A stretch of DNA of 43,765 nt, taken from contig CAIWWN010000180.1 of the NCBI GenBank assembly GCA_903916355.1, positions 1 through 43,765 on the forward strand. Direction: 5' to 3'. Made by a program: the position numbers and the translations under genes. Origin of the DNA: an uncultured Burkholderiales bacterium (GTDB taxonomy: Bacteria; Pseudomonadota; Gammaproteobacteria; Burkholderiales; Burkholderiaceae_C). Below the pieces are notes generated by a model. The model had not been told where the DNA came from. It did no database searches and saw nothing but the letters and a program-made list of their open reading frames with translations. Below are positions 10,971 through 14,971 of the stretch, piece by piece (positions within the stretch are counted from its first letter, which is position 1; each line of letters begins with the position of its first letter).

Positions 10971-11112
10971 AAAAGCGCCGATGTGGGCCGTGCAGGTGGT
11001 GCGCCATTTTCGGCACAGCCATTCCTTGGGCGATGTCCAGGTTGCGATGGCGCACGACACTCGATGCGAGCAGCGCTAAGAAAATAATGAACGTATTGGG
11101 ATTAATTTTTCT

Positions 11113-11139
11113 TTGTTTTGAGGCTATAGTAAATATAAT
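11113..11139 (+). promoter_or_regulatory. Candidate promoter upstream of cassette array (TTGTTT - 15 bp - TATAAT)
   Basis: Perfect TATAAT in an AT-rich tract of otherwise GC-rich DNA; short 15-bp spacing makes this tentative. Confidence 0.3.
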
Positions 11140-11337
11140 GAATCAGCACAAGAACTTGATCGAGTGATCGGGCGGACTGCAAAGAAGGAGCACCGGGTTT
11201 CATGCGAAATTTATACCGGTACGAAAACACAGCAATTGAACCTGCAAACCAAGGCGCATGCGGCTTGCAGCCAATTTATCTGAAAGATGTATCGACACGG
11301 CCCGGATGTATCCACCGGGTTTTGCGGTCTACATTAC

Positions 11338-11344
11338 GTTAAGT
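11338..11344 (+). other. Integron core site GTTAAGT (R'-type GTTRRRY) at 5' boundary of cassette 1 (attI or attC remnant)
   Basis: GTTAAGT matches GTTRRRY and is the exact reverse complement of ACTTAAC at 11758-11764. Confidence 0.6.
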
Positions 11345-11360
11345 CGCATAAGGGGACATC

Positions 11361-11729
11361 GTGCGTATTCCAAAGCATCTTGCATTCATTGCCCTTCTGC
11401 TCTTGCCTGGCTTCGCCGCCGCCGATGGGAATACGTTGTTGACACAGTGCACGCAGGTGGAGCGCTTCATGGACAATAAGAAAGCAGGTGCGGAATCGGA
11501 CATCGGCATGTGTTTGGGCTTGGTTCAAGGAGTACGTAACACCATGCTATTTACCGAGCCATTGCTCGATCAGAAGCACCGCACATGTTGGCCAACCGAC
11601 GGAATTGACAACGGTCAGGCGGTTCGTATCGTGCTCCAGTACCTTCGAAGTAATCCGGCGTCGCTGCACCAAGACGAGGTCTTGTTGATGATGCTGGCAT
11701 TTCGAAAGGCGTATCGGTGCGCAAAATGA
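11361..11729 (+). CDS. Rap1a/Tai-family-like immunity protein (integron cassette 1), GTG start
   Basis: Signal peptide, DGNTLLTQC...DIGMCLGLVQGVRNT...CWPTDGIDNGQAVRIVLQYLRSNPASLHQDEVLLMMLAFRKAYRC: conserved Cys and GQAVRIVLQYL pattern. Confidence 0.75.
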   Translation: MRIPKHLAFIALLLLPGFAAADGNTLLTQCTQVERFMDNKKAGAESDIGMCLGLVQGVRNTMLFTEPLLDQKHRTCWPTDGIDNGQAVRIVLQYLRSNPASLHQDEVLLMMLAFRKAYRCAK

Positions 11730-11757
11730 GTCGAACCGACCGTCGCGTCCAGATGCC

Positions 11758-11847
11758 ACTTAACCGGTCAGTCAAGACGGATACACAAATGCGTCCGGCC
11801 GCTTCGCGGCCAGTGCAAATGTGCGCCGCCTACCTCCAACGTTAAAG
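11758..11847 (+). other. attC-like site 1 (90 bp)
   Basis: R'' ACTTAAC ... GGCCGCttcGCGGCC hairpin ... R' GTTAAAG. Confidence 0.7.
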
Positions 11848-11863
11848 CTCAAAAGGAGTCGCT

Positions 11864-12334
11864 ATGACAGTCAACACGTGGCCGAGAAACCAATACACGG
11901 GCGTCGGTGGCGGCCGATACACAGGAGTCGGCGGAGGCCTTTACACCGGTGTTGGTGGAGGCGCGTACACCGGCGTGGGCGGGGGCATGTACACCGGGGT
12001 TGGCGGCGGTCGATACACAGGTGTAGGCGGAGGGCTCTACTCGGGAGTCGGCGGCGGTCTCTATACCGGGGTTGGCGGCGGCCTTTACACGGGCGTTGGG
12101 GGCGGACTTTATACGGGTGTGGGAGGTGGGCTCTATTCTGGCGTGGGCGGGGGCATGTACACCGGTGCCGGCGATCCCTACATGAGCAACATCCCTCCTT
12201 GGGACTTCTTCGTAGAGTATCTGTTCACGCACGGGTATAAGTCACAAGCTGCGCTTATCCTGCGTCACATGCCGAGGCAGTACGGTCAGCCACTGACGAA
12301 GCATCTGCAGGAAAAGTTTGGCGATGAGCTCTAA
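11864..12334 (+). CDS. Octapeptide-repeat protein (Y[T/S]GVGGGx)11 with non-repetitive C-terminal domain (integron cassette 2)
   Basis: AAGGAG RBS at 11853-11858, ATG 11864; 11 full repeats plus a degenerate 12th; C-terminus DPYMSNIPPWDFFVEYLFTHGYKSQAALILRHMPRQYG... Confidence 0.85.
   Translation: MTVNTWPRNQYTGVGGGRYTGVGGGLYTGVGGGAYTGVGGGMYTGVGGGRYTGVGGGLYSGVGGGLYTGVGGGLYTGVGGGLYTGVGGGLYSGVGGGMYTGAGDPYMSNIPPWDFFVEYLFTHGYKSQAALILRHMPRQYGQPLTKHLQEKFGDEL
11894..12157 (+). repeat. 11 tandem 24-bp coding repeats (YTGVGGGx)
   Basis: Direct reading of translation; every repeat is exactly 24 bp and in frame, but codon third positions differ between copies. Confidence 0.95.
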
Positions 12335-12418
12335 CTTGTCGGTCGAGATGGACGCCCACGTGCGTCCGCGCGCCTCGCGTACACCTGGTCTTGGTTGCCA
12401 CTCACCTTTACGTTAGGC
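12329..12418 (+). other. attC-like site 2 (90 bp)
   Basis: R'' CTCTAAC (contains the stop codon of the upstream ORF) ... R' GTTAGGC (exact GTTRRRY). Confidence 0.7.
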
Positions 12419-12421
12419 CGC

Positions 12422-12943
12422 ATGAAACGACCCGAACGACTCCGCCGTGTTGCGCTCCTGTGCTGCCACTGCCTCAGGAACGTGGCTCTGTATCGCTCCG
12501 CCTGGCGCAGACGAGAGCTCATCGTTCGCCGCCAGTTCTGGGTCAATGCCAACGGCAATGCGATAGACATTGCGGTTCTCGAGTGGTGCAAGCTCTTTGC
12601 TGATCGAAAGGGCAAGCATCACTGGACGCGCGTGGTTTCTGATGAGGCCGCATTCCTTGCGCAGCTACTCCGGGCACTCGGATTGTCAGCGAAGGAGTTC
12701 CATGACTTCGCGCGCTCAGTGCTACGCTACCGCAACAAGTTTGTCGCACACCTTGACGACGAACGCACCATGCATATTCCTGCTACACGAGTACTTCGCC
12801 GCAGTGCAGCATTTCTGTATGACTGGCTACGAGCCGACGCAATCGATAGCCAGTACCTTCAGGATGCACCCAGTTGTGCGCGGGAGCACTACTCGGCCTT
12901 TTACTCTCACGGCCGCGCGGAGCACTTGCGCAATGCGGCCTAG
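12422..12943 (+). CDS. Hypothetical protein with HEPN-like R-N-x4-H motif (integron cassette 3)
   Basis: ATG 4 bp after R' of attC2; ...EFHDFARSVLRYRNKFVAHLDDERTMHIP... Confidence 0.7.
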   Translation: MKRPERLRRVALLCCHCLRNVALYRSAWRRRELIVRRQFWVNANGNAIDIAVLEWCKLFADRKGKHHWTRVVSDEAAFLAQLLRALGLSAKEFHDFARSVLRYRNKFVAHLDDERTMHIPATRVLRRSAAFLYDWLRADAIDSQYLQDAPSCAREHYSAFYSHGRAEHLRNAA

Positions 12944-13066
12944 CCCCTTGCTCAAGCAGAGCGCCAACGGCAGGCCACCAGGCCCGGGCCGGTGGTGCGC
13001 GGCACATTTTCACCGGCCCGGGCCTGGCGTCCTGCCGTCGTCGCCCGCTTAGCTCGAACGTTAACC
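12938..13066 (+). other. attC-like site 3 (129 bp) with long imperfect hairpin
   Basis: R'' GCCTAGC; arms 12969-12994 and 13011-13036 complementary at 24/26 positions; R' GTTAACC (degenerate). Confidence 0.7.
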
Positions 13067-13085
13067 CGCACCATCAATTCCGCAC

Positions 13086-13412
13086 ATGTACTCATCGACA
13101 TTCATTTTCTCGAAGAAACAGTACGACAGCGAGTTCTATCGGCTTGATCAAGCTATCGCTGAAGCCGCAAAAGAAATCCCAGGCTATCTTGGTGAAGAAG
13201 CATGGGAAAACACGAGCACAGGATTGGTTTCCAATGTTTATTACTGGCAGACGCTTGAAGCCTTGCAGGAATTGATCAAGCATCCGAAGCATCAGGAAGC
13301 AAAAGCCAAACAAGCAAACTGGCTCGATGGGTATCAAGTGATCATTTCCGAGGTCATTAAATCCTACGGTGACTCCAAACTCACGATGCTGCCCGCGTTC
13401 AATGCGCAGTAA
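13086..13412 (+). CDS. Small ABM-like (antibiotic biosynthesis monooxygenase fold) protein (integron cassette 4)
   Basis: FIFSKKQYDSEFYRLDQAIAEAAKEIPGYLGEEAWENTSTGLVSNVYYWQTLEALQELIKHPKHQEAKAKQANWLDGYQVIISEV pattern. Confidence 0.65.
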   Translation: MYSSTFIFSKKQYDSEFYRLDQAIAEAAKEIPGYLGEEAWENTSTGLVSNVYYWQTLEALQELIKHPKHQEAKAKQANWLDGYQVIISEVIKSYGDSKLTMLPAFNAQ

Positions 13413-13426
13413 ACCAAAAAACCACC

Positions 13427-13485
13427 CATTAACGCCCATTTCAGGACTGCCCGCCATGAATGGGTTTTAGCGCCCCAACTTAGCA
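13427..13485 (+). other. Short attC-like site 4 (about 59 bp), degenerate R'
   Basis: CATTAAC ... CCCATTTCA/TGAATGGG pairing with an extra unpaired T ... CTTAGCA (G of GTT replaced). Confidence 0.45.
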
Positions 13486-13521
13486 ACGCCCCACGGAAAA
13501 CAACTTGAAAGTAATCCAACT

Positions 13522-13947
13522 ATGAATCCGAATGCATTTTTCTGGAAAATCATGCGCGGCGAAATGCCCCCTCCGCCAGCGGCCACAACGCTTGGAATTT
13601 CTTTCAAAAATATCGACGCCAAGATTGGCGCGATCGAAGTCGAGTTCGAAGGAAAAAAGGAATTCACGAATCCAGCAGGCAATATCCAAGGTGGTTTTCT
13701 TGCCGCGATGTTAGACGACACCATGGGGCCGGCACTGGCCTCCACGCTGTCTGAGGGCGAATTTGCGCCAACGCTGAACCTCAATGTTTGTTTCCAATCT
13801 GCCGCGAAGGTTGGTCGCCTTCTGGGCAAAGGCCGAGTCGTCAAGCGCGGCCGAGGCGTCTGTTTCTTGTCCGCTGAGCTTTATCAAGACGGCGAGCAGG
13901 TGGCAACTGCAACGGCCACCGCGCTCATACGTAGCCTGCCGAGATAA
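13522..13947 (+). CDS. PaaI-family hotdog thioesterase (probable last cassette)
   Basis: NPAGNIQGGFLAAMLDDTMGPALAS...LNLNVCFQSAAKVGRLLGKGRVVKRGRGVCFLSAELYQDGEQVATATATA. Confidence 0.85.
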   Translation: MNPNAFFWKIMRGEMPPPPAATTLGISFKNIDAKIGAIEVEFEGKKEFTNPAGNIQGGFLAAMLDDTMGPALASTLSEGEFAPTLNLNVCFQSAAKVGRLLGKGRVVKRGRGVCFLSAELYQDGEQVATATATALIRSLPR

Positions 13948-14012: not shown

Positions 14013-14288
14013 ATGGAGTTCACTTGGTCAGAAACGAAGCGAGCAGCGAATATCAAAGCCCATGGCCTTGACTTCGTAGACGCCGAAAGTGTTTTTGAAG
14101 GCGTGACGTTCACCTTCGAAGATGACCGTTTCTCCTACGGTGAGCAACGTTTTGTGACACTGGGCTTGCTCGCTGGCATACCTGTTTCAGTCGTACACAC
14201 AGAGAGTGAATATGAAATCCGCATCATCTCGTTCCGAAAAGCAAGCAAGCGCGAGTCGCAAATCTACTACGATGAAATCCAAAACTGA
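14013..14288 (+). CDS. brnT: BrnT family toxin
   Basis: MEFTWSETKRAANIKAHGLDFVDAESVFEG...RFVTLGLLAGIPVSVVHTES..IRIISFRKASKRESQIYYDEI. Confidence 0.9.
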   Translation: MEFTWSETKRAANIKAHGLDFVDAESVFEGVTFTFEDDRFSYGEQRFVTLGLLAGIPVSVVHTESEYEIRIISFRKASKRESQIYYDEIQN

Positions 14289-14526
14289 TTGGGCGCGATT
14301 GCACTCCGGCGCTGGCGATATGAAGCCGACGCCAGAACACCCGGAGACTGACGTAAGTCACATTGTGCGTGGCATGGTTCGCAAAGGTTTGAAGCCAATG
14401 CCTGCCAAGGCATCTATTTCGCTGCGATTGGATCAAGACGTGCTCGAATGGTTCAAGGCGCAAGGGACTGGCTATCAGACGCGAATCAACACAGTCCTGA
14501 GGGCGTTCCGTGACGCTTCGGTTTAG
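14272..14526 (+). CDS. brnA: BrnA family antitoxin
   Basis: Overlaps brnT end; KASISLRLDQDVLEWFKAQGTGYQTRINTVLRAF. Confidence 0.88.
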   Translation: MKSKTDWARLHSGAGDMKPTPEHPETDVSHIVRGMVRKGLKPMPAKASISLRLDQDVLEWFKAQGTGYQTRINTVLRAFRDASV

Positions 14527-14565: not shown

Positions 14566-14694
14566 ATGGCGGCTCTAGGCTATACAGGGGACCGGCTTTT
14601 TTATGTGGTGTTCGTTGCCCGTGTAGAGACGCGACGAATTATCAGCCTGCGAAAGGCGAACCAACGCGAGGTGAATCGCTATGCCGAAACTTAA
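14566..14694 (+). pseudogene. Truncated BrnT-like toxin (C-terminal part only)
   Basis: Frame reads MAALGYTGDRLFYVVFVARVETRRIISLRKANQREVNRYAET*, i.e. the RIISLRKA..RE..Y end of BrnT; N-terminal half absent. Confidence 0.75.
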
Positions 14695-14971
14695 ACCGAA
14701 CCATATTTCTGTCACGGACACAAAAGATGCCACGATCACCGCTGCTGCGATGACCGACCCTGACGCCTTGCCGTTTACGGATGCGCAGTGGGAGGCGCTC
14801 AAGCCAAAGTTGCGCACCGGGTGCCCAAAGGCCGAGGTGACCAAAGAACGCATCTCCATTCGACTCTCCCGTGATGTGGTGACGCAGTTTCGCGCCACAG
14901 GAGAGGGTTGGCAGACTCGGATGGATTTGGCCTTGCGCCAATACATCGCAGAGCACCCGATCACCCACTGA
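14681..14971 (+). CDS. BrnA-like antitoxin (second copy)
   Basis: Overlaps the truncated brnT; ERISIRLSRDVVTQFRATGEGWQTRMDLALRQYI. Confidence 0.8.
   Translation: MPKLKPNHISVTDTKDATITAAAMTDPDALPFTDAQWEALKPKLRTGCPKAEVTKERISIRLSRDVVTQFRATGEGWQTRMDLALRQYIAEHPITH

Follow-up and report, generated by a model that had tools for sequence, protein, structure and literature searches.

Is an integron array that has lost its integrase a dead remainder, or is it still in use? This unsettled question is raised by a locus within 43,765 nucleotides of DNA from an uncultured Burkholderiales bacterium of the freshwater genus Limnohabitans (hereafter the window), in which an array of short cassettes is present without an intact integrase gene. 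In genome surveys such arrays are met with about as often as complete integrons (PMC9024848). An earlier note, made from the sequence alone, had described the locus as a CALIN-like array of four cassettes and a probable fifth, with no integrase ORF in the window. We are highly confident that the region is a chromosomal integron with a dead integrase gene, retaining a stub of this gene, attI and three cassettes. In its layout the intI stub on the minus strand, containing a probable cassette promoter Pc, is followed by attI, three cassettes with an attC each and host DNA towards dapD.

Three attC sites delimit three gene cassettes

To avoid a circular test of attC identity, the sites for training covariance models were taken from outside the window: model R1 was trained on 17 attC that accompany an intact intI in family members of other genera, and the wider model R2 on 61 attC with the window sequence left out. 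Plain folding heuristics produced dozens of false sites and were dropped in favour of these models. In the 43.8-kb window R1 ranked the site at 12329-12418 first (E 2.4e-4), that at 12938-13066 second (E 0.13) and that at 11759-11847 fourth (E 3.2). R2, applied to both strands, identified exactly three attC, all on the same strand (11758-11848, 12329-12418 and 12938-13066; E 3.8e-6 to 3.3e-9, next best match 2.5), thereby recovering the sites that the earlier note had read from motifs, all of which are present where it placed them, including GTTAAGT at 11338 and ACTTAAC at 11758. No Rfam family was matched in the window. The cassettes, their sites and their genes are as follows.

11339 to 11841, plus strand: cassette 1, between the attI GTT and the R' GTT of attC1; own ends matching at 13/16 positions
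11361 to 11729, plus strand: cassette 1 ORF, secreted protein of the Rap1a family (PF18602; Pfam 51.9 bits, cut-off 27.7)
11758 to 11848, plus strand: attC1, R'' ACTTAAC at 11758 and R' GTTAAAG at 11841; R2 E 3.8e-6
11842 to 12412, plus strand: cassette 2, between the R' GTT of attC1 and that of attC2
11864 to 12334, plus strand: cassette 2 ORF, about 13 YTGVGGG-type repeats and a C-terminal domain
12329 to 12418, plus strand: attC2; R2 E 3.3e-9
12413 to 13060, plus strand: cassette 3, between the R' GTT of attC2 and that of attC3; own ends 11/12
12422 to 12943, plus strand: cassette 3 ORF, weak HEPN/AbiU2 similarity with an RNKFVAH motif (Pfam E 0.031, below cut-off)
12938 to 13066, plus strand: attC3, 129 bp; R2 E 5.3e-9

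Bottom-strand hairpins, which the earlier note had proposed to look for at all three sites, are unusually stable compared to shuffles at site 1 (z -2.7) and site 3 (z -7.9) but not at site 2 (z +0.2), so that the identity of attC2 rests on the covariance model and on its R''/R' boxes. The third site belongs to an attC family common to Limnohabitans arrays, copies 79-95% identical being present in other leader-bearing arrays with the homology confined to the attC. A 134-bp stretch including it (12937-13070) is also 75% identical to DNA without annotation on an Aminobacter plasmid (NZ_CP062120.1).

A cassette excises at G^TTRRRY and its own 5' end and own R'' are contiguous in the circle, for which reason the two are expected to be complementary. 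The complementarity reported in the earlier note is present, with 13/16 matches over the extended ends of cassette 1, 9/10 for GTTAAAGCTC/GAGCTCTAAC and 11/12 for GTTAGGCCGCAT/ATGCGGCCTAGC. Over 51 cassettes of related arrays, 10.3 of 16 positions match between own ends, compared with 7.6 against the next cassette and 7.9 when ends are swapped. The signal extends beyond the 7-bp core, 0 of 20,000 permutations reaching the observed value. The relationship between own 5' end and R'' that marks an integron gene cassette is thus found here. Only three cassettes are supported (11339-13060): for the proposed cassette 4 (ORF 13086-13412) and the possible fifth we detected no attC at any usable score, the suggested fourth attC neither matching a model nor folding with unusual stability (z +0.45).

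The cassette 2 ORF matched no Pfam, NCBIfam or PADLOC family and has a homologue in genome G168, 67% identical, while the cassette 3 product is possibly a HEPN protein, its similarity lying below threshold. No homologues of these two ORFs were found adjoining attC elsewhere in the family. Between the last attC and the following toxin-antitoxin genes (13086-13947), the window contains an ORF without annotated function and a hotdog thioesterase, and no attC; a BrnT/BrnA pair (14013-14526) and an orphan BrnA (14681-14971) follow. In G272 only the end of the orphan BrnA is kept, directly after an attC.

A conserved leader contains an attI-like site and the remnant of an integrase gene

Upstream of the cassettes lies a leader (11103-11341) that ends at the first GTT, and the homology of relatives to the window stops at its last position. 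It contains three features.

11103 to 11203, minus strand: intI fossil, the 5' end of a divergent gene; ATG at 11203, 33 codons MKPGAPSLQSARSLDQVLVLIHYIYYSLKTKKN, then a stop
11125 to 11130, plus strand: TATAGT, probable -10 of Pc, inside the intI fossil and kept in aligned leader copies
11265 to 11344, plus strand: attI-like site, ending in GGTCTACATTACGTTAAGT, with direct repeats GATGTATCGAC/GATGTATCCAC

The leader is present in 35 of 90 genomes of the genus, and often more than once per genome. The 34 genome-contig stretches in which it was found carry, with few exceptions, the label Limnohabitans or Comamonadaceae; in viral contigs the leader pattern had no match. Across 41 leader loci, every one of the 62 attC matches lies downstream of the leader and on its strand. 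As an origin of the leader, a mobile unit was set aside: the left edges of the copies scatter between about -213 and -277, a pattern more in line with separate deletions than with the end of one element.

The leader end GGTCTACATTACGTTA is apparently laid out like the simple site of an integron attI, with L and R boxes, and the direct repeat ahead of it is presumably equivalent to those of known attI sites. Over about 40 loci the attI-like core is 89% conserved compared to 67% for the adjacent spacer; among the copies of the dapD locus, which are three only, attI (88%) does not exceed the intI fossil (85%) in conservation to a degree that would point to selection on attI after the loss of intI. 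Nearly all leader copies lose homology at the GTTA at 11338-11341, and with a different cassette following in each genome this suggests that IntI recombined cassettes into attI at the GTT.

The 33 residues of the fossil are identical at 22 positions to the same reading in locus L105, where intI continues, showing that the window holds the stub of an integrase gene; weaker similarity to intI extends to about 11076. At the DNA level the fossil region is 84% identical to L104 from position -239, and intact intI genes of other genera align to positions -231 to -160 of ext104. The earlier note was right that the window has no integrase ORF and had missed this fossil of the first codons. With a fossil of 33 codons instead of a functional intI with its additional domain, the locus is not a complete integron; with attI beside an intI remnant and cassettes divergent from it, it is a degraded one.

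Within the stub, TATAGT would represent the -10 element of Pc. All 19 aligned leader copies, from two leader lineages, have TATAGT or TATAAT at this position, including the second lineage in which the intI coding sequence is barely recognisable; a scan for Pc revealed no clear -35 and no consensus promoter match at TATAGT. Its retention is compatible with selection acting on the leader. The second lineage, 246 bp in length (L060 3195-3440, L101, L103, L053, L088, L075 and L071), has the same attI end and TATAGT/TATAAT box and at most traces of intI.

Intact integrase genes were not found in 90 genomes of the genus

Pseudogenes of intI adjoin the same leader in L104, L105, L106, L096, L086, L083, L057 and L094, mostly at one chromosomal site flanked by a gene that we take to be hisF from the end of its sequence, and read away from attI and the cassettes as in canonical integrons. 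They represent various stages of decay, L104 being nearly complete with a broken frame, L105 and L096 having internal deletions, L106 deletions and a frame break, and the remaining four being shorter.

No intact IntI was detected among the 90 genus genomes, many of which are drafts or MAGs, so that an unassembled intI is possible in any given genome; the model cut-off is passed in two of them, by a broken gene in either case. In a sample of the family 105 of 251 genomes (about 42%) pass this cut-off (p 3e-15 for the difference). Nor did any of 26 genomes fetched via leader loci contain an IntI over the cut-off. The search of the rest of the own genome suggested in the earlier note yielded no match over the TIGR02249 cut-off, the matches examined further being Xer-type or Xer-like, and did reveal a further array on contig C103. 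This second array (L051) has its own leader copy at 147-361 and attC at 615, 1140, 3085, 3670 and 4775. At C270:10144-10212 (L121 6145-6213, minus strand) there is a solitary attC, without a leader in the region retrieved; it follows an apparent BrnT-type toxin-antitoxin pair and possibly belongs to a single stray cassette.

A tyrosine recombinase on contig C95 of the own genome (L001 1462-2337) was rejected as the missing integrase. It resembles IntI and Xer models to about the same degree, lacks the integron additional domain (model positions 182-237 unmatched) and is below all NCBIfam cut-offs; of the 90 genus genomes a single one has it.

Cassette content changes precisely at attI

If the ORFs of the window were conserved in synteny across relatives, this would speak against a cassette array, as pointed out in the earlier note; the comparison shows that cassette content is not conserved. 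On the dapD side the flank and the truncated intI junction are common to the window, L052 (G272) and L084, but no cassette is, each of the three diverging exactly at the attI GTT. With flanks 79-92% identical at this syntenic site, the window has three cassettes, G272 one unrelated cassette and L084 others, only the 129-bp attC being common to the window and L084 within the cassette region. The locus of the window's array also carries a different or no array in L055, as in L052 and L084, and G257 has neither leader nor array at the syntenic site.

Cassette 1 of L059 (Limnohabitans sp. 2KL-17) is 96% identical over 645 bp from the GTT to cassette 3 of L073, a MAG. The leaders of the two can be aligned over 65 bp, with about 85% agreement, and no IntI was detected in either genome. 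Together with the divergence of L052 and L084 from the window, this constitutes GTT-precise presence and absence of cassettes between relatives. Between the two copies of this cassette the match breaks off early within the attC, which are 117 and 86 bp in length, indicating from this sequence pair that the interior of an attC evolves more quickly than its ends.

The differing cassettes behind one truncated intI, and the cassette shared by L059 and L073, suggest that cassettes continue to be exchanged among the arrays, perhaps through an integrase supplied in trans. The sharing may alternatively reflect exchange before the loss of intI, homologous recombination or an unassembled intI.

Origin and present state of the array

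Active IntI inserts circular cassettes at attI. In the model we favour, IntI would have inserted the cassettes singly at the attI GTT, the newest probably lying nearest to attI, before a deletion removed the whole of intI except its first codons. Stub and attI would have been retained, probably because the stub holds the promoter transcribing the cassettes. An outside integrase placing stray cassettes at a non-classical site (attG), with no integron ever having been present, is very improbable: CALINs can arise in this way and the own genome has the leaderless attC at C270:10144, but the array begins at a conserved attI-like site beside an intI fossil, which largely refutes such an origin, and in relatives the same leader is joined to intI pseudogenes. 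A reading of the palindromes as terminators or REP-like repeats that separate ordinary small genes has a negligible probability. Imperfect inverted repeats between short ORFs would look alike, yet the attC-trained models, the R''/R' architecture, the own-end complementarity and the leader all fit attC and no terminator-like match coincides with the three sites.

More weight has to be given to the array being a frozen relic in which no cassette has moved since intI died, the differences reflecting older polymorphism, deletion or homologous exchange. We consider this quite possible, if somewhat less than evenly probable. The failure to find an intact IntI in the genus supports it, as do Xanthomonas strains with a common intI lesion, which usually carry identical arrays (PMC12444791), and near-identical copies of the 129-bp attC could support homologous recombination. 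Against it stand the window, L052 and L084, changing exactly at the attI GTT behind one truncated intI junction without any common cassette, and the cassette that is first in the array of L059 and third in that of L073. Rather doubtfully, we propose that Limnohabitans maintains living arrays without an integrase of its own, integrases of other bacteria or transient plasmids exchanging cassettes at attI in trans.

Limnohabitans is a freshwater genus with cultured strains and a useful test case. Within this one genus many stages of intI decay are found with the promoter-attI end kept and different cassettes behind the same dead integrase, making it directly testable whether integrase-less arrays are dead or in use. 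Degraded integrons and CALINs are already known (PMC9024848, PMC2426708, PMC12444791) and this locus adds another member; the genus-wide loss of intact intI with retained and multiplied Pc-attI leaders and continued cassette turnover may be new, no description of Limnohabitans integrons having been found in the literature searched.

Comparison with known systems

A CALIN, as defined in IntegronFinder, is a cluster of attC sites lacking an integron integrase, and degradation of complete integrons has been proposed as its origin (PMC9024848). Three clustered attC on one strand (at least two being needed), cassette ORFs and no neighbouring intact intI place the locus within this operational definition. 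The label CALIN-like used in the earlier note is therefore applicable but incomplete, since the attI/Pc end and the intI stub, which the definition does not require, remain and make the locus a degraded integron instead of a mere group of stray attC.

The Xanthomonas integrons at the ilvD locus likewise descend from an ancestral chromosomal integron with repeated lineage-specific inactivation of intI and extra arrays elsewhere, and genomes with the same lesion usually keep identical arrays (PMC12444791). In Limnohabitans, by contrast, we found no genome with an intact IntI, the attI/Pc leader is present at several loci per genome, and genomes with the same truncated intI carry unrelated cassettes. 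In a survey of pseudo-integrons about one third of intI genes were pseudogenes (PMC2426708), decayed by frameshifts and deletions as in Limnohabitans; unlike these, gene loss in Limnohabitans is nearly complete genus-wide, with the attI end being retained.
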